Shown piece by piece: positions 49,258 to 60,387 of a stretch of DNA of 64,000 nt; within the stretch, counting starts at the first letter, position 1, and the number at the start of each line of letters is the position of its first letter. The notes below the pieces were generated by a model. The model was not told the origin of the DNA. It did no database searches and worked only from the letters and a program-made list of their open reading frames with translations. A program made the translations under genes and the position numbers. Source of the DNA: Pseudogemmobacter humi (GTDB taxonomy: Bacteria; Pseudomonadota; Alphaproteobacteria; Rhodobacterales; Rhodobacteraceae); NCBI RefSeq assembly GCF_900609055.1, contig NZ_UXAW01000048.1, positions 62,001-126,000 on the forward strand. Reading direction: 5' to 3'.

Positions 49258-49334
49258 GGTTCGCCACAGGATCGCAGCGCCGCTGCGAACCTTCAAACAT
49301 ATTTTATGCCCGACTAGCAACAAATATATGTTGC
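49258..49334. promoter_or_regulatory. two dyads in the deoR-BMC intergenic region
   Basis: The first dyad is GGTTCGC (49258-49264) with GCGAACC (49285-49291), enclosing GCAGCG-C-CGCTGC (49274-49286). The second is GCAACA-AATATA-TGTTGC (49317-49334). The stretch 49292-49334 is unusually AT-rich and probably holds the promoter. Either dyad could be the operator of the adjacent DeoR-type regulator. Confidence 0.5.
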
Positions 49335-49381
49335 CAGATGAAGGATGTGGTGACAATCTCCGGTCAAACGGAGGTGCGCTC

Positions 49382-50662
49382 GTGTTCAACTACGGATACT
49401 TCAATTTCGATTCGAAGGCCGAAGTGCTCGACAAAGCCGTGGAATACTGGAACCCCGGCAAGACGAAGTTCTGGCAGGACGCGGGCATCGACCTGGTGAT
49501 CGACCGGCGCGAAGGATACTTCCTTTACGACATGTCCGGCCGGCGGCTGATCGACCTGCATCTCAATGGCGGGACTTACAATTTCGGCCATCGCCACCCC
49601 GAACTGATCGCGGTGCTGAAGTCGGCGCTGGACTATTTCGACATGGGCAACCACTGGTTCCCCTCGGTCGCCCGTTCCGCCTTTGCCGAGAAGCTGGTCA
49701 AGACCGCCGACGGCATGCGCTACGCCATCTTCGGCGCGGGCGGGGCCGAGGCTGTGGAAATCGCACTTAAAACTGCCCGATATACCACAAAGCGCAAGAA
49801 GATCGTCTCGATCATCAAAGGCTACCACGGCCATTCCGGCCTGTCGGTCGCCACCGGGGACGAGCGTTTCTCGAAGATCTTCCTCGCCGACAAGCCCGAC
49901 GAATTCCTCCAGGTGCCGTTCAACGACATCGACGCGCTGGACCGGGCTCTGCGCGGCCGCGACGTGGCCGCCTTCATCATCGAGACCATTCCGGCGACCT
50001 ACGGCTTCCCGCTGCCCGACGAGGGCTATCTGAAAGCCTGCCAGGATCTCTGCCGCCGCTACGGCACGCTCTACATCGCCGACGAGGTGCAGACCGGGCT
50101 GATGCGCACCGGCACGATGTGGGGCTGGCAGAGCTACGGGCTGGAGCCCGACATGTTCGTCACCGGCAAGGGGCTGGGCGGCGGGATCTATCCGATCTCG
50201 GCCTGCGTCGTCACCGAGAAATGCGGCGGCTGGCTGCATGAGGACGGCGCGGCGCATATCTCGACCTCGGGCGGCTCGGAACTGGGCTGCATCGTCGGCC
50301 ATCAGGTGATCGACATGCTTCAGCGCCCCGAGGTGATCTCGAACGTGCAATTCGTGGCAGAGTTCTTCCGCCGCAGCCTTTCCGAGATGATGGCGGTGCA
50401 TTCCGACATCTTCGTCGGCATCCGCCAGCGCGGCGTGATCCTGGGGCTGGAATTCGACCACCCTGAGGGCGCGGTGGCGGTGTCGCGGGCGCTTTATGAA
50501 CACGGGGTCTGGGCGATCTTCTCCTCGCTCGACAAGCGCGTGTTGCAGTTCAAGCCTGGGGTACTGCTGGATGCGGCCACCTGCCAGGAAATCATCGACC
50601 GGATGGAAGCGGCCATGCCGCGGGCGCGCGCGCTTCTGCGCAACATGCGCCGGGCGGCCTGA
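49382..50662 (+). CDS. class III PLP enzyme, predicted amino-alcohol-phosphate phospho-lyase of the BMC
   Basis: This fold-type I PLP enzyme of the class III aminotransferase family has 426 residues. The PLP lysine is in VTGKGLGGG (K263), with the ring-stacking ADEVQTG (D234) before it and the GAGGAEAVEIALK phosphate-binding segment. Some family members are phospho-lyases, acting on ethanolamine phosphate for example. With an amino-alcohol kinase and an aldehyde dehydrogenase in the same operon, conversion of 1-amino-2-propanol phosphate to propionaldehyde, ammonia and phosphate is the best inference. A transaminase role cannot be excluded. The GTG at 49382 follows GGAGG by seven bases. Confidence 0.82.
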   Translation: MFNYGYFNFDSKAEVLDKAVEYWNPGKTKFWQDAGIDLVIDRREGYFLYDMSGRRLIDLHLNGGTYNFGHRHPELIAVLKSALDYFDMGNHWFPSVARSAFAEKLVKTADGMRYAIFGAGGAEAVEIALKTARYTTKRKKIVSIIKGYHGHSGLSVATGDERFSKIFLADKPDEFLQVPFNDIDALDRALRGRDVAAFIIETIPATYGFPLPDEGYLKACQDLCRRYGTLYIADEVQTGLMRTGTMWGWQSYGLEPDMFVTGKGLGGGIYPISACVVTEKCGGWLHEDGAAHISTSGGSELGCIVGHQVIDMLQRPEVISNVQFVAEFFRRSLSEMMAVHSDIFVGIRQRGVILGLEFDHPEGAVAVSRALYEHGVWAIFSSLDKRVLQFKPGVLLDAATCQEIIDRMEAAMPRARALLRNMRRAA

Positions 50663-50676
50663 GGCGGGGGTAAGTC

Positions 50677-52239
50677 ATGCCGATTCAGCTTCACGACGAC
50701 AGCCCGCGCCTTGCGATCCCCGACCGGGCCGAATCCATCGCGCGGATGAAGATCGACCGCGCCACCTGGGCGGTGCGGGCCTTCTCGCGCTATGACCGGG
50801 CGGCGGTGATGAAGATCGCCCGCGCCGTGGCCGAGGCCGCGCATCAGGCGGCGCAGACCTATGCCGAATGGGCGGTGCGCGAGACCGGCATGGGCGTGGT
50901 GGAACACAAGAAGCTGAAGAACGAGCTTTCCGCCCATCCGCTGGTGGATTTCTACGAGGGGATGGATCTGGTGAACCCGCGCGTCGATCCGGCGCGCAAG
51001 ATGGTCGAGATCCCGAAGCCCGCGGGCGTGGTGCTGGCGCTGACACCGGCGACCAATCCGGTCTCGACGCTGTATTACAAGACCCTGCTCGCGGTGCTGT
51101 CGCGCAGCGCGGTGATCTTCAGCCCGCATCCGATGGCGAAAGCCTGCTGCAATGACGCGGCGGTGCGGCTTGAGGCGGCGGCGGTGGCGGCCGGCGCTCC
51201 CGCCGGGCTGATCCAGTGCATCGAAGAGCCCTCGGTCCCGCTGGTGCAGGCGCTGATGGCGTCCCCGAAGGTGCAGGTGATCCTGGCCACCGGCGGCAGC
51301 CCGATGGTGCGCGCGGCCTATGCCTCGGGCAATCCGGCGATCGGGGTGGGGCCGGGCAATGCGCCGGTCTATGTGGATCCCGACACCGACCAGAACGCGG
51401 CGGCGAAGCGGATCGTCGATTCGAAAAGTTTCGACAATTCGGTGCTTTGCACCAATGAGAGCGTGCTGATCTCGCTCGACCAGGACCGCAGCCGGCTGGA
51501 GCGCGCGCTTCGCGCCAACGGCGCGCATATCTGCAACGAGGCCGAGGTGGCGAAGCTGCGCTCCTGGCTGTTCCCCGAGGGGCATCTGAACACCGCCGCC
51601 GTGGGTAAATCGGCGGTCTGGATCGCGGCGCAGGCCGGGTTCCGGGTGGTGCCCTCGACCCGCATCCTGATCGCGCCGGTCGAGGTGGTGGGGCTGGACG
51701 AGCCCCTGTCGAAGGAAAAGCTGGCCCCGGTGCTGGCCTGGGCCACCGTGGGCACGTTCGAGCGCGCCACCGGCATGGCGCAGATGATCCTGCGGATGAG
51801 CGGCGCGGGCCATTCCGCCGCCTTCCACGGCGAGGATCCGCAGAAGGCGATGGATTTCGCCTCGGCGCTGCCGGTCTATCGCGTTGTGGTCAACGCGCCG
51901 TGCTCGCAAGGCGCGGCCGGGTTCGCGACGCATCTGGCGCCCTCGTTCATGATCGGCACCGGCTATGCCGGGCGGTCCTCGGTGGGCGAGAACATCGGGC
52001 CGCAGCATCTGGTGCACTGGACGCGGCTGGCCTGGAATTCGGACGCCGCGGTGCCGATGGGCGATTTCACCGATGTGCGCGCGCCGTTCGACGGGCCTTC
52101 CGCGCCGCCGCCCGCCGCGCCGCGGCCGGTGACGCTGGCCCCCGCGCCTGCACCCGCCAATGATGCCGGGATGGACCGCGACATGCTGCGCCAGCTCATC
52201 CTTCAGGAACTCCGTGAACTGACCAGGGGCCAGTCGTGA
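50677..52239 (+). CDS. CoA-acylating aldehyde dehydrogenase of the microcompartment
   Basis: This 520-residue enzyme resembles the acylating aldehyde dehydrogenases of microcompartments (PduP/EutE type), making acyl-CoA and NADH from an aldehyde such as propionaldehyde. The catalytic Cys258 is in DNSVLCTNE, and ATGGSPMVRAAYASG is the NAD-binding Gly-rich segment. The core ends near residue 470. A Pro/Ala linker (about 474-494) follows, then an amphipathic helix MDRDMLRQLILQELRELTRG (499-518), a classic encapsulation peptide. GGCGGGGG precedes the ATG. Its stop overlaps the first BMC-T gene (GTGA). Confidence 0.9.
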   Translation: MPIQLHDDSPRLAIPDRAESIARMKIDRATWAVRAFSRYDRAAVMKIARAVAEAAHQAAQTYAEWAVRETGMGVVEHKKLKNELSAHPLVDFYEGMDLVNPRVDPARKMVEIPKPAGVVLALTPATNPVSTLYYKTLLAVLSRSAVIFSPHPMAKACCNDAAVRLEAAAVAAGAPAGLIQCIEEPSVPLVQALMASPKVQVILATGGSPMVRAAYASGNPAIGVGPGNAPVYVDPDTDQNAAAKRIVDSKSFDNSVLCTNESVLISLDQDRSRLERALRANGAHICNEAEVAKLRSWLFPEGHLNTAAVGKSAVWIAAQAGFRVVPSTRILIAPVEVVGLDEPLSKEKLAPVLAWATVGTFERATGMAQMILRMSGAGHSAAFHGEDPQKAMDFASALPVYRVVVNAPCSQGAAGFATHLAPSFMIGTGYAGRSSVGENIGPQHLVHWTRLAWNSDAAVPMGDFTDVRAPFDGPSAPPPAAPRPVTLAPAPAPANDAGMDRDMLRQLILQELRELTRGQS

Positions 52240-52850
52240 CCGATCTTCGCGCCTTCATCTTCATCGACCAGCTCCAGCCGCAGACGCTTGCCTATACGTC
52301 GACCTGGATGCGCGGCACGCTGCCGCGCGCGCGGATGGCCGCGCAGATCATCGAGATCGCCCCGGGGCTGGATGTCGAGGCGCTGACCGACACCGTGCTG
52401 AAAAGCGCCGAGGTGCGGGCGGGCTTCCTGGTGGTCGAACGCCAGTTCGGCACGCTGCAATTCCACGCCTATTCCACCGCCGAGGTGCAGGCCGGGGCCG
52501 AGGCGGCGCTTGCCGCCATGGGCAAGAAACGCGACGAGGCCGAGCGGCCGAAGATTATGGCGTCGAAAATCGTCACCCGGGTCGACGACCAGCACGCTTT
52601 CCTGATGAACCGCAACAAGACCGGCTCGATGGTTTTGGGCGGCGAGAGCGTCTATCTCCTGGAATGCCAGCCCGCGGCTTATGCGATCCTTGCCTGCAAC
52701 GAGGCCGAGAAAGAGGCCGATATCAAGGTCATCGACATGCGGATGATCGGGGCGAACGGGCGGCTCTATCTGGCCGGGACCGAGGCCGACGTGCGCAATG
52801 CCCGCGACGCGGCAGAGCGCGCCCTGCGCGAGGCGGGGGCGACAGGATGA
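52236..52850 (+). CDS. BMC-T shell protein 1 (tandem BMC domain trimer)
   Basis: This 204-residue shell protein has two consecutive BMC-like domains (about residues 1-100 and 108-204). Three copies would form a pseudohexameric tile of the microcompartment facet. Segments like DQHAFLMNRNKTGSMVLGG and MIGANGRLYLAGTEADV are shared with the second BMC-T in this operon. The layout (LQPQTLAY start, IIEIAPGLDVEALTDTVLK strand-helix) looks permuted, as in EutL-like trimers (inference). The GTG start overlaps the aldehyde dehydrogenase stop; its stop overlaps the next gene (ATGA). Confidence 0.88.
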   Translation: MTDLRAFIFIDQLQPQTLAYTSTWMRGTLPRARMAAQIIEIAPGLDVEALTDTVLKSAEVRAGFLVVERQFGTLQFHAYSTAEVQAGAEAALAAMGKKRDEAERPKIMASKIVTRVDDQHAFLMNRNKTGSMVLGGESVYLLECQPAAYAILACNEAEKEADIKVIDMRMIGANGRLYLAGTEADVRNARDAAERALREAGATG

Positions 52851-53305
52851 ACGATCTGCGCGCCCTGATCCGCGATCTGCTCTCGGAAGAGATCGCCGCT
52901 CTGCGCGCCGAGATTCTCGGCGGGACGCAGGCCGAGCGGGTCGCCGTGGGCAATGAGGCGGAACTGACGGCTTTCGCGCTGAACATCGCGCGCCGGGCGC
53001 AGGATCCGGGGTTCGTCTCCGCGCTGGAAGCGGGCCGGATCCGCTATGCTCCGGCGCACACCGCCGCATATGCCCCGGCTTTGGTTCCCGCCGCCGCGCC
53101 GCGCGCGGCACCGCCGGCGGCTCTGGTCGCGACCGTGCCGCCTTCGGTGCCGGAACTGCGCAAGGGGCTGATCACCGAACGCGATATCGCCGCCGTGCCC
53201 GAGGGCGAGCCGCGGCTGCGCATCACAAAAACCGCGCGGCTGACGCCCCTTGCGGGCGACGAGGCCCGCCGCCGCGGCATCAGGATCGAAAGGACACTGG
53301 CATGA
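52847..53305 (+). CDS. BMC-associated protein with amphipathic N-terminus and EutQ-like module
   Basis: This 152-residue protein starts with an amphipathic helix (MNDLRALIRDLLSEEIAALR), similar in character to encapsulation peptides. A short helical region (about 30-65) and an Ala/Pro linker (66-100) follow. The C-terminal module (103-148) reads LITERDIAAVPEGEPRL and LTPLAGDEARRRGIRIER, which resembles the N-terminal part of EutQ but without the cupin domain. Function unknown; an adaptor between cargo and shell is one possibility. It overlaps both neighbours by four bases, between BMC-T and BMC-P. Confidence 0.78.
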   Translation: MNDLRALIRDLLSEEIAALRAEILGGTQAERVAVGNEAELTAFALNIARRAQDPGFVSALEAGRIRYAPAHTAAYAPALVPAAAPRAAPPAALVATVPPSVPELRKGLITERDIAAVPEGEPRLRITKTARLTPLAGDEARRRGIRIERTLA

Positions 53306-53571
53306 TAAGGGCGCGCGTCAGCGGCAGGCTCTGGTCCACCCGCCATATCGGCACGCTGCCCACCGGGGCGTTGCTGGAAGTCGAAACCGAAACCGGGGCG
53401 AAGCTGATCGCCTTCGACCCTCTGGGCTGTGCCGAGGGCGAGGCGGTGCTGGTCACGCAGGGCTCGGTCGCGGCGGGATGGTTCACCGACCGTCAGGCCC
53501 CGATCGACGCGCTGATCATCGGCTCGATCGACGAAGAATCCGCCGGGAAACCGGCAGCGAAACGCAAGTAA
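53302..53571 (+). CDS. BMC-P shell vertex protein (EutN/CcmL family)
   Basis: This 89-residue protein is of the EutN/CcmL type, whose pentamers cap the vertices of the microcompartment shell. It shows the beta-barrel pattern RARVSGRLWSTRHIGTLP and AFDPLGCAEGEAVLVTQGS, ending with ALIIGSID. The C-terminal tail is basic. The ATG overlaps the stop of the previous gene. It is the only vertex protein in the locus, so one type of pentamer would serve all vertices. Confidence 0.92.
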   Translation: MIRARVSGRLWSTRHIGTLPTGALLEVETETGAKLIAFDPLGCAEGEAVLVTQGSVAAGWFTDRQAPIDALIIGSIDEESAGKPAAKRK

Positions 53572-53583
53572 GGGAGTTCTCAA

Positions 53584-53865
53584 ATGGCTAATCTTGCAAT
53601 CGGAATGATCGAAACCAAAGGCTATGTCCCCGCGCTCTCGGCTGCGGATGCCATGGTCAAGGCCGCCAATGTCGAGATCATCGCCCGCAACGAAGTGGGC
53701 GGCGGTCTGGTCTCGGTGGTGGTGCGCGGCGATGTGGGCGCGGTCAAGGCCGCGACCGAGGCCGGGGCAGAGGCCGCCGCTGCGGTGGGCGAAGTCACCG
53801 CCGTTCATGTGATCCCGCGCCCGCATGCCGACCTGGCCAAGCATTTCGACGCGGTGAAGGGCTGA
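53584..53865 (+). CDS. BMC-H shell protein (hexameric facet tile)
   Basis: This 93-residue single-domain BMC protein forms hexamers tiling the facets. It starts [27 protein letters not shown] (first residues shown as [17 protein letters not shown]) with the edge Lys in the usual place. The pore loop is VGGGLV, and it ends [14 protein letters not shown], the canonical tail. A strong AAGGGAG ribosome-binding site fits high expression. It is the only BMC-H gene in the window. Confidence 0.95.
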
Positions 53866-53895: not shown

Positions 53896-54519
53896 ATGAC
53901 AGAGCTTCGCGTCTATCTTCCCATCGAGGATCTTCAGCCCCAGTTCGCGGCTTATCTTTCCTCGCCCACCAGGGCGAGGGGATACCCGCCCTTCGCGGGC
54001 CAGCATTCGCTGATCATCGAGGTCTCGCCGGCGCTGGCGATCCACCGGATAACCGATCTCGCGCTGAAATCCGCGCCCGAGATGGAGCCGGGCATCCTTT
54101 ACACCGAACGTCAGTTCGGCCTGCTGGAGCTGCATTCCGACCGGATGGAGGATCTGACCGCCGCGGGTGAGGCGATCCTGCAAGGCATCGGCGCGCAGCC
54201 CGGCGATCAGCTTAAGCCGCAGATCCTGTATCACGATATTATCGAAGACCTGTCGGATCAGCATGCTATCATCCTGAACCGCTCGCGCGATGCCTCGATT
54301 CTGGTGCCGGGCGTGGCGCTCCTGATCTACGAGATGGCCCCGGCGCTGTTCGCCTGCGTGGCCGCGAACGAGGCCGAGAAGGCCGCGCCCAATGCCGTGA
54401 TCAACGATGTGCAGATGATGGGTGCGACCGGCCGTCTGTTCATCTCGGGCACGCTGGAGGACATGAGGATCGCACGCGACACGATCACCGCGAAGCTGGA
54501 GGCCATCACGGGAAGATGA
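53896..54519 (+). CDS. BMC-T shell protein 2 (tandem BMC domain trimer)
   Basis: This 207-residue tandem-domain shell protein is a paralogue of the first BMC-T, with matching anchors at LQPQ (residues about 13-16), TERQFG, DQHAIILNRSRD, NEAEK and MMGATGRLFISGT. Identity looks about one third by eye. Having two different trimers may give the shell two pore types. It follows the BMC-H gene after 30 bases, and a GAGG precedes the ATG. Confidence 0.88.
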   Translation: MTELRVYLPIEDLQPQFAAYLSSPTRARGYPPFAGQHSLIIEVSPALAIHRITDLALKSAPEMEPGILYTERQFGLLELHSDRMEDLTAAGEAILQGIGAQPGDQLKPQILYHDIIEDLSDQHAIILNRSRDASILVPGVALLIYEMAPALFACVAANEAEKAAPNAVINDVQMMGATGRLFISGTLEDMRIARDTITAKLEAITGR

Positions 54520-54609: not shown

Positions 54610-55740
54610 ATGATTACGAGAAGACAGTTCTCGCTGGGAGCCGCCGGTATGGCCGGTCTTTCGGCCCTTTCGCTGCCTGGCCGTGCCCTGGCTGACCGTA
54701 ACAATCAGCTCAATATCCTCTGCTGGGAAGGCTACAATTCCGACACGGTGCTGAACCCGTTCCGCGCCGCGCATCCCGGCGCCACTGTGCGCGCCGAAAG
54801 CGGCACTTCGGACCCCGAGATGATCAACCGCCTGCGCGCGGGCGAGATCGGCACCTGGGATCTGATCAACGTGAACCAGCCCTGGGCGCGGGGGGAACTC
54901 CTGCGCGACAACCTGATCAAACCGCTGAGCAAAGAGCGGTTCATGCCCTGGTTCGACAAGATGACCCCGGAATTCGCGAAACCCTATGCGCTGGCCTTCG
55001 CGGACAACGGCGATCTTCTGGGTATGCCGCAGCGCTACGGGCCGTTCTCTTTCGTGGTCAATACCGACAAGATCAGCCAGGACTCGGCCGAGGAACAGGG
55101 CTGGAACCTGTTCTTCGACCCGGCGATGAAGGGCCGCTACGGGCTTCTCACCTACGACAACTGGAACGTGATCCACCTTTGTCTTGCCGCCGGGCTGAAC
55201 CCGTTCCAGCCGGTCGAAGGCGCGGATGCCGAAAAATTCGCCGAGACCTGCAAGCAGATCGTCGGCGGCGCCAAGCTGATGACCGACGATCTGGTGGCGA
55301 TGAACACCGCGCTGATCAACGGCGAGATCGACGCCTATTTCACCGGCGGCACCTATACCGCCTCGCCCGCGCGCTATGACGGGGCCACCTTCGTGCGCGC
55401 GATCACGCCGCGCTCGGGGCCGGTCGATGGCAAGGGCGGCGTGGTCTGGGTCGAGCTGACCTCGGCGGTGAACAACCCCGATCCGTCGTCTCTGGCCGAG
55501 GATTTCCTCGAATTCGTGCAGCAGCCCGAGATATGCAAGGCGGTGGCCTTCTCGGAGGGCACCTACAATCCGATCGCCCAGATGGGCGACCCGGAGGTCA
55601 TGGCGCTGTTCGACGAAGAGATGCTGGAGGCGATCCAGTTCGACACGCTGGAAGCCGAACTCGCGCGCTGCCTCGAATTCGATGTGGTGCCTTCGTATGA
55701 CGCCCTGCTGGCGACTTATGTCGCTGCCCGCCGCGGCTGA
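54610..55740 (+). CDS. polyamine-type ABC transporter substrate-binding protein (PotD-like) of the BMC locus
   Basis: This 376-residue periplasmic binding protein of the spermidine/putrescine (PotD) family has a Tat-type signal (TRRQFSLGAAGMAGLSALSL, cleavage near ALA-DR). The family core follows (LNILCWEGYNSD, DLINVNQPWARGELL, GPFSFVVNTDKIS). In this operon its ligand is probably a small amine such as aminoacetone or 1-amino-2-propanol (inference). The ATG follows GGGAGT. A strong hairpin follows the gene. Confidence 0.87.
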   Translation: MITRRQFSLGAAGMAGLSALSLPGRALADRNNQLNILCWEGYNSDTVLNPFRAAHPGATVRAESGTSDPEMINRLRAGEIGTWDLINVNQPWARGELLRDNLIKPLSKERFMPWFDKMTPEFAKPYALAFADNGDLLGMPQRYGPFSFVVNTDKISQDSAEEQGWNLFFDPAMKGRYGLLTYDNWNVIHLCLAAGLNPFQPVEGADAEKFAETCKQIVGGAKLMTDDLVAMNTALINGEIDAYFTGGTYTASPARYDGATFVRAITPRSGPVDGKGGVVWVELTSAVNNPDPSSLAEDFLEFVQQPEICKAVAFSEGTYNPIAQMGDPEVMALFDEEMLEAIQFDTLEAELARCLEFDVVPSYDALLATYVAARRG

Positions 55741-55762
55741 GCCCCGGCGCCTCGCGTAACAT

Positions 55763-55789
55763 CCTGCCGGGCTCTTCGCGCCCGGCAGG
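55763..55789 (+). terminator. strong hairpin after the PotD-like gene
   Basis: CCTGCCGGGC (55763-55772) pairs perfectly with GCCCGGCAGG (55780-55789) around TCTTCGC, followed by CGGTTTTCC. Between a binding-protein gene and its ATPase gene this probably works as a partial terminator or mRNA stabiliser. Confidence 0.6.
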
Positions 55790-55819
55790 CGGTTTTCCCG
55801 CCCCAATTGAGAGAGACCG

Positions 55820-56920
55820 ATGCTCGTCCAGCCTTTCGTGCGGATCGATAATGTCACCAAGCGTTTCGGACGCTTCACCGCGCTGGACCGGATCAGCCTC
55901 GACATCGCCGAGGGCGAGTTTCTGACCATCGTCGGCCCCTCGGGCAGCGGTAAATCCACGCTGATCCGGCTGCTCGTCGGCATCGACGACGTGACCGAGG
56001 GCACGATCAGCCTGAACGGCAGCCGGATCGACACCGTGCCCGCGAACAAGCGGCCGACCTGCATGGTGTTCCAGTCGCTGGCGCTGTTCCCGCATATGAG
56101 CGTGGGGAAGAACATCGAATTTCCGCTGAAGCTGAAAAAGGTTACGCCCGCAGACCGCCGCGCCCGCGCGCTGGAGCTGCTGCGGCTCCTGCGGTTGCCG
56201 GAAGATTACTACGGCAAGATGATCGGCCAGCTTTCCGGCGGCGAGCGGCAGCGGGTGGCTCTGGCCCGCGCGCTGGCTTTCGATCCCGAGATCATCGTCT
56301 TCGACGAGCCCCTGTCGGCGCTGGATTACCGGCTGAGGAAGACGCTGGAGAAAGAGCTGAAGGATCTGCACGGCCGCACCGGCAAGACCTTCGTCTACAT
56401 CACCCATTCGCTGGAGGAGGCGATGGTGATGTCCGACCGCATCGCCATCATGCGCCGCGGCCGGTTCGAGCAGATCGCCAGCGCCGAAGAGATCTACTCC
56501 CGCCCGGTCAGCCGTTTTGTGGCCAGCTTCATGGGCGAGGTGAATCTGTTCGACCTGGCGGTGGACGGCGCCGGCCAGCCGGTCTGGCAGGGCGCGGGTG
56601 TCACCGCCGCCCCCGGCGCGCTGACGCTGGCCCCGGGATGGCAGGGCGCGCTGATGGTGCGCCCGGAACTGGTGCGTTTCCTGGCCCCTGGGCAAAGCGC
56701 CGATTTCACCGTGCAGGGCCAGATGGCGGCGGAATACGCGCTCGGCTCGCGCATCCAGTATTCGGTGCAGACCGAAGGCGGCATGGTGATCACCGTCGAG
56801 CGCCCGTTCGAGGCCCGGCACCACGGCGCCCCGGGCGCGCCGGTGGCTTTGGGCTGGGACCGCGATGCGGTGCATCCGATCGCCGGAACCGGGGAAGGGG
56901 GCGGCGATGGAAAGGCTTGA
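55820..56920 (+). CDS. polyamine-type ABC transporter ATP-binding protein (PotA-like)
   Basis: This 366-residue ATPase has Walker A GPSGSGKST, signature LSGGERQRVALARAL, Walker B IIVFDEPLSALD and the switch His in ITHS. The C-terminal TOBE-like domain runs from about residue 240. It energises the adjacent permease pair. Its end overlaps the first permease gene by 14 bases. Confidence 0.9.
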   Translation: MLVQPFVRIDNVTKRFGRFTALDRISLDIAEGEFLTIVGPSGSGKSTLIRLLVGIDDVTEGTISLNGSRIDTVPANKRPTCMVFQSLALFPHMSVGKNIEFPLKLKKVTPADRRARALELLRLLRLPEDYYGKMIGQLSGGERQRVALARALAFDPEIIVFDEPLSALDYRLRKTLEKELKDLHGRTGKTFVYITHSLEEAMVMSDRIAIMRRGRFEQIASAEEIYSRPVSRFVASFMGEVNLFDLAVDGAGQPVWQGAGVTAAPGALTLAPGWQGALMVRPELVRFLAPGQSADFTVQGQMAAEYALGSRIQYSVQTEGGMVITVERPFEARHHGAPGAPVALGWDRDAVHPIAGTGEGGGDGKA

Positions 56921-57761
56921 ACACCGGCTCGGCTTTCTGACCGGCCTGCCGATCATCGTCCTCTTGCTGATCAGCTTCATCATGCCTTTGTTCGTGGTGG
57001 CGGGCTTCGCCATCATGCCGCAGCGCGTGTTCGAGCTGGCGCATCTGCCGGATTTCTCGTCCTTCGCGGTGATCTGGGAGCAGGGCTATTACAAATCGCT
57101 GCTGCGCTCTCTGGGGCTGGCGTTCCTGACCACGGCGATCCTGTTCGTGGTCTGCTGGCCGCTGGCTTACGGCATGGCCAAGGTCTTCGGCCGCTTCACC
57201 CTGGTGATCACGCTGGCCGTGGTGCTGATCCTGTTCGTCTCGGAAAACATCCGCCTGTTCGGCTGGACGCTTTCGCTGATGAAGGGCGGGCTGATCGAGG
57301 GCCATCTGCGCGCCTGGACCGGGCTGAGCTTCGAGAGCCCGCTCTATGACTGGCCGGTGATCGTCTTCGGCATGGCTTACGTCTATTTCCCCTTCATGCT
57401 GTTCCCGCTGGCCCAGGGGATTTCGCTGGTGCCCGACGACGCGCGGCTTGCGGCCTCGGACCTTGGCGCCAGCCCGGCGCGGATCCTGTTCGAGATCGAA
57501 ATGCCGCTCGCCGCGCCCGGGATCATGGTCGGCAGCCTCCTGACCTTCGTGCTGTCCGCCGGCGCGGTGGCCGAGGCGAAACTCCTCGGCGGGCGCTCGG
57601 TCGTGGTGCTGACCGACGATGTGGAAAGCGCCTTCACCTTCGGGCAGAACTGGCCGCTCGGCTCGGCGCTCTCGCTGATGCTGATCGTGATCGTCGCGGT
57701 CCTGGCCATGGTGCCGATCAGCCGGATCAATCTGGATGCGATCATGGGGAGGAAGCGATGA
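56907..57761 (+). CDS. polyamine-type ABC transporter permease (PotB-like)
   Basis: This 284-residue inner-membrane protein has about six transmembrane helices and the EAA loop (DDARLAASDLGASPARILFEI, shown as AASDLGASPARILFEI). The ATG at 56907 follows GGGGAAGGGGG and lies inside the end of the ATPase gene. Its stop overlaps the next permease gene (ATGA). Confidence 0.88.
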   Translation: MERLEHRLGFLTGLPIIVLLLISFIMPLFVVAGFAIMPQRVFELAHLPDFSSFAVIWEQGYYKSLLRSLGLAFLTTAILFVVCWPLAYGMAKVFGRFTLVITLAVVLILFVSENIRLFGWTLSLMKGGLIEGHLRAWTGLSFESPLYDWPVIVFGMAYVYFPFMLFPLAQGISLVPDDARLAASDLGASPARILFEIEMPLAAPGIMVGSLLTFVLSAGAVAEAKLLGGRSVVVLTDDVESAFTFGQNWPLGSALSLMLIVIVAVLAMVPISRINLDAIMGRKR

Positions 57762-58552
57762 AACCCGTTTCCAACACCACAAGGATCGCGCTTTACCTCT
57801 ACGGTTTCCTGATCATCGCGGTGCTTTATCTGCCGCTGGTCTCGGTCGGCTTCGCCTCGGTCTCGAAAGCGCGCTATCTGACCTTTCCGATCAACCGCTA
57901 CACCAGCGAATGGATGGTCCAGGCCGTCACCAGCCCCAATGTCCACGACCTGGTGCTGACATCGCTGAAGATCGCCGTCTCGGTCACGGTGCTGTCGATG
58001 GTGATCGGCTTCTTCGGCGCGCTGGCCTTCGCGCGGTTCCAGTGGAAATACCGCAACCTGTTCCAGAAGCTGATCCTTCTGCCGATCTTCTTCCCGCAGA
58101 CGGTCCTGGGGCTGGCGCTTTTGATCTGGTTCTCGGCGCTTGGCATCCAGCCGAGCTGGAAAACGGCCGTGGTCGCGCATCTGGTGTGGATCGCGCCGAT
58201 CACCACGCTGATCATCGCCATCCGCGCCTATGGGTTCGACCCCGCGCTGGAAGAGGCCGCGCGCGACATGGGGGCCTCGACGCTGACCATCCTGCGCGAG
58301 GTGACGCTGCCTTTGCTGATGCCCGGGGTGATCTCGGCGGGGCTGTTCGCCTTCCTGCTGTCCTGGGGCAATTTCCCGCTTTCGCTGTTCACCACCGGCG
58401 TCGATTCGACGCTGCCGAAATGGCTCTATGCGCGGATGGTCTCGGGCTACACGCCGCAGATCCCGGCGCTTGGGGTGCTGTCGGTGGTGGGATCGGCGCT
58501 TCTGATGACCATCGGGTTCCTCGTCTTCCGCTGGACCCGCCGCCGCGCCTGA
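57758..58552 (+). CDS. polyamine-type ABC transporter permease (PotC-like)
   Basis: This 264-residue second permease subunit has about six transmembrane helices and an EAA loop (EEAARDMGASTLTILREV). It overlaps the PotB-like gene by four bases. The dehydrogenase gene starts 35 bases downstream, so transporter and enzymes are in one operon. Confidence 0.88.
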   Translation: MKPVSNTTRIALYLYGFLIIAVLYLPLVSVGFASVSKARYLTFPINRYTSEWMVQAVTSPNVHDLVLTSLKIAVSVTVLSMVIGFFGALAFARFQWKYRNLFQKLILLPIFFPQTVLGLALLIWFSALGIQPSWKTAVVAHLVWIAPITTLIIAIRAYGFDPALEEAARDMGASTLTILREVTLPLLMPGVISAGLFAFLLSWGNFPLSLFTTGVDSTLPKWLYARMVSGYTPQIPALGVLSVVGSALLMTIGFLVFRWTRRRA

Positions 58553-58587
58553 GCACGCGCGGACCAACCATAACAGGGAGAAAGACC

Positions 58588-59367
58588 ATGCTGACATCAC
58601 TGAAAGGCCGCAGCGTCATCGTCACCGGCGGCTCGAAAGGGATCGGGCGCGGCATCGCGCGGGTGTTCTCGCGCGCGGGCGTCAAACTGACCATCGTCGG
58701 CCGCGACCGCGCCGCTCTGGATGCGGCGGTGGAGGAGATGAACGCCGCCGGTGCCACCGCCCGCGCCGCCACCTGCGACGTGAGCGATTACGACCAGGTG
58801 CAGCGCATGGTCGATGAGGCGGCCGAGGCCCAGGGCGGGCTGCATGTGGTCTGCGCCAATGCCGGATCCTTCCCGCAGGTGAAGATGGTCGACATGACCT
58901 CCGCCGACTGGGATGCGATGATGGCGAACAACCTGCGCTCGACCTTCCTCTGCGTCAAAGCCGCGATCCCGCATTTCGAAAAGGCGGGCCGCGGGCGGGT
59001 GGTCGTCACCTCGTCGATCACCGGGCCGGTGACGGGCTATCCGGGCTGGGCGCATTACGGGGCCTCGAAGGCCGGGCAGCTTGGCTTCATCAAGACCGCC
59101 GCGATGGAACTGTCGCGCTACAACACCACGATCAACGCGGTGATGCCGGGCAATATCGTGACCGAGGGTCTGCAAGGGCTGGGCGAGGATTACCTGAAGA
59201 CCATGGCCGCCTCGATCCCGCTGAAACGGCTGGGCGATGTCGAGGATATCGGCAATGCGGCTTTGTTCTTTGCCTCGGACGAGGCCGCCTATATCACCGG
59301 CCAGCAGATCATCGTCGACGGCGGCCAGATCCTGCCGGAATCGCTGGAAGCTCTGGAATCGATCTGA
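58588..59367 (+). CDS. SDR dehydrogenase, predicted 1-amino-2-propanol dehydrogenase
   Basis: This 259-residue short-chain dehydrogenase has the cofactor motif TGGSKGIG (residues 13-20), NAG at 91-93, and the catalytic Ser143, Tyr157 and Lys161 (YGASK). The C-terminus ends VDGGQILPESLEALESI. In the Mycobacterium RMM/AAUM operon the SDR interconverts aminoacetone and (S)-1-amino-2-propanol. The same role is inferred here from operon content, not from substrate residues. GGGAG precedes the ATG at 58588; the frame extends upstream into potC without similarity. Confidence 0.82.
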   Translation: MLTSLKGRSVIVTGGSKGIGRGIARVFSRAGVKLTIVGRDRAALDAAVEEMNAAGATARAATCDVSDYDQVQRMVDEAAEAQGGLHVVCANAGSFPQVKMVDMTSADWDAMMANNLRSTFLCVKAAIPHFEKAGRGRVVVTSSITGPVTGYPGWAHYGASKAGQLGFIKTAAMELSRYNTTINAVMPGNIVTEGLQGLGEDYLKTMAASIPLKRLGDVEDIGNAALFFASDEAAYITGQQIIVDGGQILPESLEALESI

Positions 59368-59379
59368 GGGGGGAAAGTC

Positions 59380-60387
59380 ATGGCTCATGACACCATGCCG
59401 CTTCAGGAGATCCTGAAGCATCTGGAGCGGCTGGCCAACGACTCGCTGCCGCTCTGGCCGGTGCCTGAGGGGGCGACGGCGCGGCTGATCAACGTCTCGG
59501 AGAACGCGACTTATCTGGTCGAGGCCGGGGAGTTCCGCTCGGTCCTGCGCATTCACCGCCCGGCCTATCACAGCCGCCGCGGGATCGGGCAGGAACTGGC
59601 CTGGGCGCGGGCCTTGTCCGACAGCGGCATGGTGCTGACGCCGCCCCCCATTGCCGGGCGGAACGGCGATCTGGTGCAGGAGGGGCGCACCCCCGGCCTG
59701 CCGGAACCGCGCTTCATGGTGATGTTTCAGTTCGCCGAAGGCCGCCAGCCCGACGAGAACGAGGATCTGGTGGCGCCGTTCGAGGGCCTCGGCGCCATCG
59801 CGGCGCGCACCCATATCCATTCGCAGACCTGGCAAAAGCCGGAACCGCTGGAGCGGCTGGTCTGGGACACCGATGCCGTTTTCGGCCCGCGCGCGAACTG
59901 GGGCAACTGGCGCGATGCGCCGAACGTCACCCCCGCGGTGCGCGAGGTGCTGGAACAGGTCGAGACGACGATCTGCGCCCGGCTCGCCGCCTTCGGCAAG
60001 GGGGCGGATCGTTACGGGCTGATCCATGCCGATATGCGGCTGGCCAATCTCTTGATCGACGGCGAGACCACGCGGCTGATCGACTTCGACGATTGCGGGC
60101 TGGGCTGGTTCCTTTACGATTTCGCCGCCGGGATCAGCTTCATGGAAGACCACCCCCAGGTGCCCGCCCTGCGCGCGGCCTGGGTGAAGGGCTACCGCTC
60201 GGTCCGGGCGCTGTCGGATGACGAGGAACGCGAGATCGACACCTTCATCATGCTGCGCCGCATGGCGCTGCTGGCCTGGATCGGCAGCCATATCGAGGCG
60301 CCCGAACCCCAGGCGATGGCGCCGCATTTCGCCCGCGTCTCGGCGGAACTGGGCCGCGCCTATCTGGCGAAATTCGCACCGGCCTGA
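59380..60387 (+). CDS. APH-fold kinase, predicted (S)-1-amino-2-propanol kinase
   Basis: This 335-residue kinase belongs to the aminoglycoside phosphotransferase / choline kinase fold. It has the Brenner motif HADMRLANLL (catalytic D218, N223) and the metal-binding DFDD (D235). In RMM/AAUM loci a protein of this type phosphorylates (S)-1-amino-2-propanol, making the substrate of the phospho-lyase. It should not be read as an antibiotic-resistance gene. GGGGGGAAAG precedes the ATG. Its last 28 bases overlap the end of the convergent GT2 gene. Confidence 0.84.
   Translation: MAHDTMPLQEILKHLERLANDSLPLWPVPEGATARLINVSENATYLVEAGEFRSVLRIHRPAYHSRRGIGQELAWARALSDSGMVLTPPPIAGRNGDLVQEGRTPGLPEPRFMVMFQFAEGRQPDENEDLVAPFEGLGAIAARTHIHSQTWQKPEPLERLVWDTDAVFGPRANWGNWRDAPNVTPAVREVLEQVETTICARLAAFGKGADRYGLIHADMRLANLLIDGETTRLIDFDDCGLGWFLYDFAAGISFMEDHPQVPALRAAWVKGYRSVRALSDDEEREIDTFIMLRRMALLAWIGSHIEAPEPQAMAPHFARVSAELGRAYLAKFAPA

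Follow-up and report, generated by a model that had tools for sequence, protein, structure and literature searches.

A small protein of RMM-type loci is a probable shell-to-core adaptor and shares a C-terminal module with PduM and EutQ

How the shell of an RMM-type organelle finds its enzyme core is the question raised by this locus, and it applies equally to the actinobacterial organelles of the same type. The locus lies within the window, the 64-kb stretch of DNA that we analysed, and one of its genes, lying between two shell genes, encodes a protein of 152 amino acids. Here we examine the conservation of this gene, the anatomy of its product and the relatives of its C-terminal module. We conclude that the protein is probably a two-ended shell-to-core adaptor of the PduM/EutQ type, and we refer to it below as the adaptor.

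The gene and its place in the operon

The genes from the aminotransferase to the second BMC-T are all on the forward strand. A class-III aminotransferase/phospholyase family enzyme (49328 to 50662) is followed by an acylating aldehyde dehydrogenase (AldDh; 50677 to 52239), which is the core cargo, and then by a BMC-T of the CcmP-like, double-stacked type (52236 to 52850), the adaptor gene ('UNK'; 52847 to 53305), BMC-P (EutN/CcmL; 53302 to 53571), BMC-H (53584 to 53865) and a second CcmP-like BMC-T (53896 to 54519). After the second BMC-T come a spermidine/putrescine-type ABC transporter, an SDR and an APH-type kinase (54610 to 60387). With AldDh, class-III aminotransferase, APH kinase, SDR, double-stacked BMC-T, BMC-P and BMC-H all present, the locus agrees with the RMM type as set out by Axen et al. 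(PMC4207490), and it is syntenic with RMM1 of Rhodococcus jostii; the RMM assignment made in the first-pass annotation is thereby borne out. A transporter of the same type, an SDR and an APH-type kinase lie 3' of the shell genes in most of the loci that we surveyed, and in the window the transporter stands where actinobacterial RMM loci have an amino-acid permease, which gives a hint that the substrate is an amino alcohol or derives from a polyamine.

The adaptor reading frame runs from an ATG at 52847 to a TGA at 53303 to 53305 and overlaps both neighbouring shell genes, as had been described. In the DNA each overlap is the four-base sequence ATGA, with the BMC-T stop ending at 52850 and the BMC-P start at 53302, an arrangement typical of translationally coupled genes. 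The longest open reading frame in this frame begins upstream, at 52664, and the homologues begin at 52847. Compared with the relative in locus L052, the gene shows 32, 28 and 86 changes at codon positions 1, 2 and 3, respectively; this third-position excess, together with conservation in 28 loci, supports the gene as coding. Thus, 52847 to 53305 is a real, conserved gene.

A genome scan recovered 30 loci, 28 of them with a member of the adaptor family (in one of the 28 the contig begins inside the adaptor gene). BMC-P, BMC-H and the second BMC-T lie directly downstream in all 28, and wherever the contig is long enough the aminotransferase, AldDh and first BMC-T are found on the upstream side. 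Since these loci had been recovered through the adaptor gene itself, the converse test started from the upstream BMC-T, which was present in 11 of 385 alphaproteobacterial genomes, every one of which also had the adaptor gene. The actinobacterium R. jostii RHA1 carries a full-length homologue in RMM1 between BMC-T and BMC-P (WP_011600239, annotated as 'hypothetical protein'; E 2.8e-23, about 28% identical), and a distant family member was found in another class of Pseudomonadota (genome G748). The survey of related loci that the first-pass annotation had called for therefore places the family well outside the window locus. A tblastn search of plasmids with the window protein gave no match. The R. 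jostii protein, which has the same gene position, occurs twice in a tandem repeat of shell genes: on pRHL2 (L097, 9001 to 14490) the block of BMC-T, adaptor, BMC-P and BMC-H is duplicated, with identical proteins. The adaptor evolves faster than its neighbours; for example, it is 45% identical to its counterpart in L037, where BMC-T and BMC-H reach 84% and 95%, respectively.

Anatomy of the protein

The 35-member family alignment (A3) defines four parts, an N-terminal helix, a small block, a linker and a C-terminal module, and the window protein has all four as well as the position between BMC-T and BMC-P. An AlphaFold2 model built with 34 relatives, the R. jostii row being left out, has a mean pLDDT of 82.8 and a pTM of 0.36. 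Residues 1 to 24 (52847 to 52918) carry the amphipathic, encapsulation-peptide-like motif LRxxIRxILxEEIAALR, and the model places a helix at residues 2 to 24 with a pLDDT of about 85 to 89. Residues 26 to 69 (52922 to 53053) form the conserved small block, with a beta-alpha-alpha-beta arrangement predicted for residues 28 to 69; the model leaves residues from about 70 to 102 disordered. The linker that had been called Ala/Pro-rich is just that, with 62% Ala plus Pro in residues 70 to 103 (53054 to 53155); it is disordered and fast-evolving and measures 20 to 46 residues across the family. Residues 104 to 152 (53156 to 53302) make up the module with the signature 'LITERDI...LTPLAxDEARRRGIxIER', modelled as an alpha/beta unit that finishes at residue 150. 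The mean frequency of the top residue is 0.60 in the helix, 0.54 in the block, 0.27 in the linker and 0.67 in the module. The cupin of EutQ (PF06249), which had been reported missing, gave no Pfam match in the adaptor.

We detected no known relative of the block at residues 26 to 69, and a sequence search of the PDB with the protein or its profile gave no credible match. Run on the model, Foldseek and VIA-align matched nothing beyond widespread alpha/beta motifs in the module (eIF5B, Cas1), with Foldseek E values of 0.15 or worse and Z scores of 5.4 or less, and they barely probed the N-terminal half.

The N-terminal helix had been likened to an encapsulation peptide. Its amphipathicity by itself is modest evidence for this, because its hydrophobic moment ranks no higher than the top 4% among local 18-mers. 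A profile of the helix, however, was run over the 64-kb stretch, and among 71,871 windows its second-best non-overlapping match was the encapsulation peptide with which the adjacent AldDh ends. That peptide (MDRDMLRQLILQELRELTRGQS; 52171 to 52236) sits on an Ala/Pro linker of its own, and an Ala/Pro linker with a 'LRRLILEELRSL'-type helix closes all 28 AldDhs examined. Among the known BMC proteins compared, the best match to the helix profile besides the R. jostii homologue was the N-terminal helix of Clostridioides difficile EutQ. Encapsulation peptides self-associate through hydrophobic packing and salt bridges (PMC12339742), and the AldDh peptide is the probable partner of the adaptor helix.

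Three relatives (L025, L026 and L027, from genomes G416, G244 and G338, three of the 11 identified through BMC-T) have a SnoaL/NTF2-like domain (PF12680; E 2.5e-19 in the L025 protein) within the linker region, with the N-terminal helix and the C-terminal module both kept. The insert is possibly an enzyme riding on the adaptor. That both ends stay in place around it we count in favour of a two-ended protein.

Relatives of the C-terminal module

Single adaptor sequences match profile models weakly but consistently, and the models are those of PduM and TIGR02536 only: TIGR02536 is matched by 32 of the 35 family members (best E 2.4e-5), TIGR04493/PduM by 27 (best E 1.8e-5) and PF15953/PduM by 21. 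PF15953 is the PduM family: a PduM sequence scores 2.4e-47 against it. A search of 299 Pseudomonadota genomes with PF15953 gave no matches, so the pduM genes were drawn from annotated records, plasmid records among them. In profile-profile comparison by hhalign, the module scored 42.9 against TIGR02536, 36.9 over 42 columns against the N-terminus of EutQ, 32.2 over about 41 columns against the N-terminus of EutT and 31.5 against PduM; the corresponding maxima of 100 column shuffles were 15.4, 16.0, 18.3 and 16.9. The resemblance to the EutQ N-terminus that the first-pass annotation had proposed thus stands up to profile comparison. By the same measure, the adaptor module is homologous to the C-termini of PduM and TIGR02536 and to the N-termini of EutQ and EutT, equally for all four.

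A blind HMM scan over 2,027 six-frame open reading frames from known BMC loci pointed the same way. The first ranks went to Listeria TIGR02536 (E 9e-10), both R. jostii copies, a BMC malate dehydrogenase of Methylibium and C. difficile TIGR02536, and the next to four PduM proteins, EutT, two divergent PduM proteins and EutQ. A combined module profile run over 398 Pseudomonadota genomes gave 13 matches, 12 of which adjoin shell genes, the loci being of RMM, eut or pdu type; the module is thus a BMC-specific domain. The thirteenth and weakest match was translation factor IF-2. A short beta-alpha-beta-alpha-beta motif such as that of IF-2/eIF5B domain III could be reached independently, and both the weak IF-2 matches and the Foldseek match to eIF5B (E 0.15) would fit convergence of this kind. 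We disfavour this explanation as extremely improbable, since the IF-2 matches are far weaker than those to BMC proteins and 12 of 13 matches falling in BMC loci is not expected by chance. We therefore dismissed the IF-2 matches as motif look-alikes, although the fold of the module may resemble the IF-2/eIF5B domain. Weak matches of this look-alike kind occurred in domain III of bacterial IF-2 in L028 to L036 and L119.

Several further module carriers came to light. In Methylibium petroleiphilum the plasmid-borne malate dehydrogenase of a BMC locus (L098, 7603 to 8901) carries the module N-terminally, with a long Ala/Pro linker after it. On a Gemmatimonadetes contig (L066, 2 to 316) and in a Planctomycetota BMC locus (L065, 9935 to 10817) we saw a PduL-like C-terminus finishing in the module and, beside shell genes, two more short module reading frames. 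The eut operon of Cetobacterium somerae (L102, 10633 to 10899) encodes an 88-aa protein that resembles EutQ residues 1 to 99 and has no cupin, and the EutQ next to it is without the module. The NCBIfam model NF007991 (EutA) matches residues 6 to 91 of Escherichia coli EutQ (L067; E 2.7e-10), so a EutQ-type N-terminus may be present in some EutA proteins.

Although the module is shared, the adaptor falls short of the cut-offs of the existing families. The best family member reaches 24.7 bits against the TIGR04493 cut-off of 50, and the window protein reaches 13.6 against the PF15953 cut-off of 27 and 14.4 against the TIGR02536 cut-off of 152.6 bits, in a match that covers the last 46 positions only. 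With these scores and no cupin, the adaptor is a distinct RMM family that shares the module and is not a member of PduM, EutQ or TIGR02536. Nor do we claim full-length homology to PduM or TIGR02536: the block at residues 26 to 69 looks alike by eye, but the hhalign comparison of residues 1 to 75 with either family did not rise above the shuffles, the PduM alignment holding only 7 sequences.

In layout, PduM (TIGR04493, PF15953 'PDU_like', PRK15428) is nonetheless very like the adaptor. It is freestanding, has about 160 residues and an N-terminal signal helix, runs from helix through linker to C-terminal module and is encoded directly upstream of a BMC-P gene, and a structural, non-enzymatic role is proposed for both. 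The middle region of PduM is longer, whereas the adaptor linker is Ala/Pro-rich and disordered, and PduM belongs to a B12-diol locus, the adaptor to one of amino-alcohol type. TIGR02536, a family of ethanolamine utilization proteins from Gram-positive and related eut operons, is the strongest module match to the adaptor family and likewise has an N-terminal encapsulation-peptide-like helix, a C-terminal module and a gene directly before EutN/BMC-P; unlike the adaptor, it has a middle domain of about 120 residues. The N-terminal region of enteric EutQ (residues 1 to 99) shares its H1/H2 module with the adaptor, and both proteins combine module, linker and an encapsulation-peptide-like or -binding helix within one chain, but in EutQ the order is reversed, with the module first and the helix after, and a cupin is fused on. 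EutQ had been put forward as the parallel to the adaptor; the homology of the module holds, but EutQ is not the closest parallel, since PduM and TIGR02536 share the layout and the gene position as well. EutT shares an N-terminal module, the remainder of the protein being a cobalamin adenosyltransferase. The carboxysome linkers CcmN and CsoS2 are described in the literature as flexible proteins with separate cargo and shell ends and are thus alike in idea, but they consist of other domains and we saw no sequence match to the adaptor.

Which end would meet the shell and which the core

To the layout, strict synteny, module homology, restriction to BMC loci and likeness of helix and AldDh peptide observed here, the publications on PduM and EutQ add the grounds from which we infer which adaptor end binds what, and that the ends bind at all. 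On this footing the adaptor would be made in step with the shell proteins through translational coupling. Its amphipathic helix would enter the encapsulation-peptide bundle of the enzyme core, where its main partner would be the C-terminal helix of AldDh, the flexible Ala/Pro linker would bridge the gap between core and shell, and the C-terminal module would dock at the inner shell face, letting shell and core close around one another.

The assignment of the helix to the core draws on PduM, whose residues 1 to 23 send GFP to the core; when PduM or this segment is lost, shell and core partly separate (PMC12108088, PMC9132943). The opposite polarity, in which the N-terminal helix lies on a shell protein and the C-terminal module holds the enzymes, has some precedent in older models that seat the encapsulation peptide of PduP on PduA (described in PMC4827028) and in EutT, an enzyme that bears the module at its N-terminus. 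We consider it quite unlikely: PduM residues 1 to 23 reach the core even in a pduB deletion, in which shell and core come apart (PMC12108088), the H1/H2 segment of EutQ, the homologue of the module, makes no peptide contact by NMR whereas H3/H4 binds cargo encapsulation peptides by isothermal titration calorimetry and NMR (PMC12487888), and the adaptor helix resembles the peptide of AldDh.

The assignment of the module to the shell draws on EutQ. Deletion work showed that EutQ requires H1/H2 (residues 9 to 41), the segment homologous to the module, to associate with the shell (PMC12487888), and this makes the adaptor reading the best supported. A protein with both ends in the lumen would account for the module on EutT, on the BMC malate dehydrogenase with its Ala/Pro linker and on the PduL-like protein, as the module would then be a lumen-targeting or enzyme-clustering tag and something else would attach the shell. 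The occurrence of the module on an enzyme such as EutT does mean that the module might tag proteins for the lumen in general and not dock on the shell. A core-only arrangement would also account for the finding that PduM is with the core and not the shell when PduB residues 1 to 37 are missing (PMC9132943), a result from which it follows that the adaptor module may get to the shell only with the help of a partner. Such a core-only hub is unlikely, however, because EutQ that lacked H3/H4 (62 to 99) but kept H1/H2 followed the shell (PMC12487888) and the pull-down of EutM by EutQ depends on the EutQ N-terminus (PMC4827028). In addition, on inspection we saw no PduB-like extension on the shell proteins of the window locus, in which the BMC domain begins directly, so that the adaptor is the only linker candidate in the operon.

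The position of the gene directly before that of BMC-P, in this locus as well as in pdu and Gram-positive eut operons, could also mean that the protein is an accessory factor, or one of assembly timing, that is linked to the pentamer and steers BMC-P insertion, closure or organelle size and not cargo, and some compartments of pduM mutants are indeed oversized (PMC12108088). We regard this as very unlikely, as both the encapsulation-peptide-like helix and the data on EutQ speak for a role with cargo, and the gene order may merely reflect operon history. A two-ended shell-to-core adaptor is thus our preferred reading.

A broader proposal, to which we give even chances, is that the module of about 45 residues ('LIT-DI / TPLA') is a general metabolosome docking domain reused across BMC proteins. 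It would then form the C-terminus of free adaptors (the RMM family, PduM and TIGR02536) and the N-terminus of EutQ, EutT and the malate dehydrogenase, and would also be carried by the PduL-like protein. According to a 2025 paper, no sequences outside Pdu are known to be homologous to PduM (PMC12108088). Among the papers that our literature search covered, none joins PduM and EutQ by homology and none names the RMM protein or an RMM shell-core linker; subscription papers or the supplements of the BMC catalogue may hold an earlier mention. The function of linking shell and cargo is already known as a type, and the adaptor family and the shared module appear to be new.

The module places PduM in a family setting with EutQ, EutT, TIGR02536 and a conserved RMM protein, and the adaptor probably supplies the cargo-to-shell connector that has been missing for an entire class of little-studied organelles, for which the model predicts which end of the 152-aa protein binds what. 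If the docking-domain proposal is true, a portable shell-docking domain would help to load engineered shells, and one domain family would explain how many types of BMC shell find their cores.
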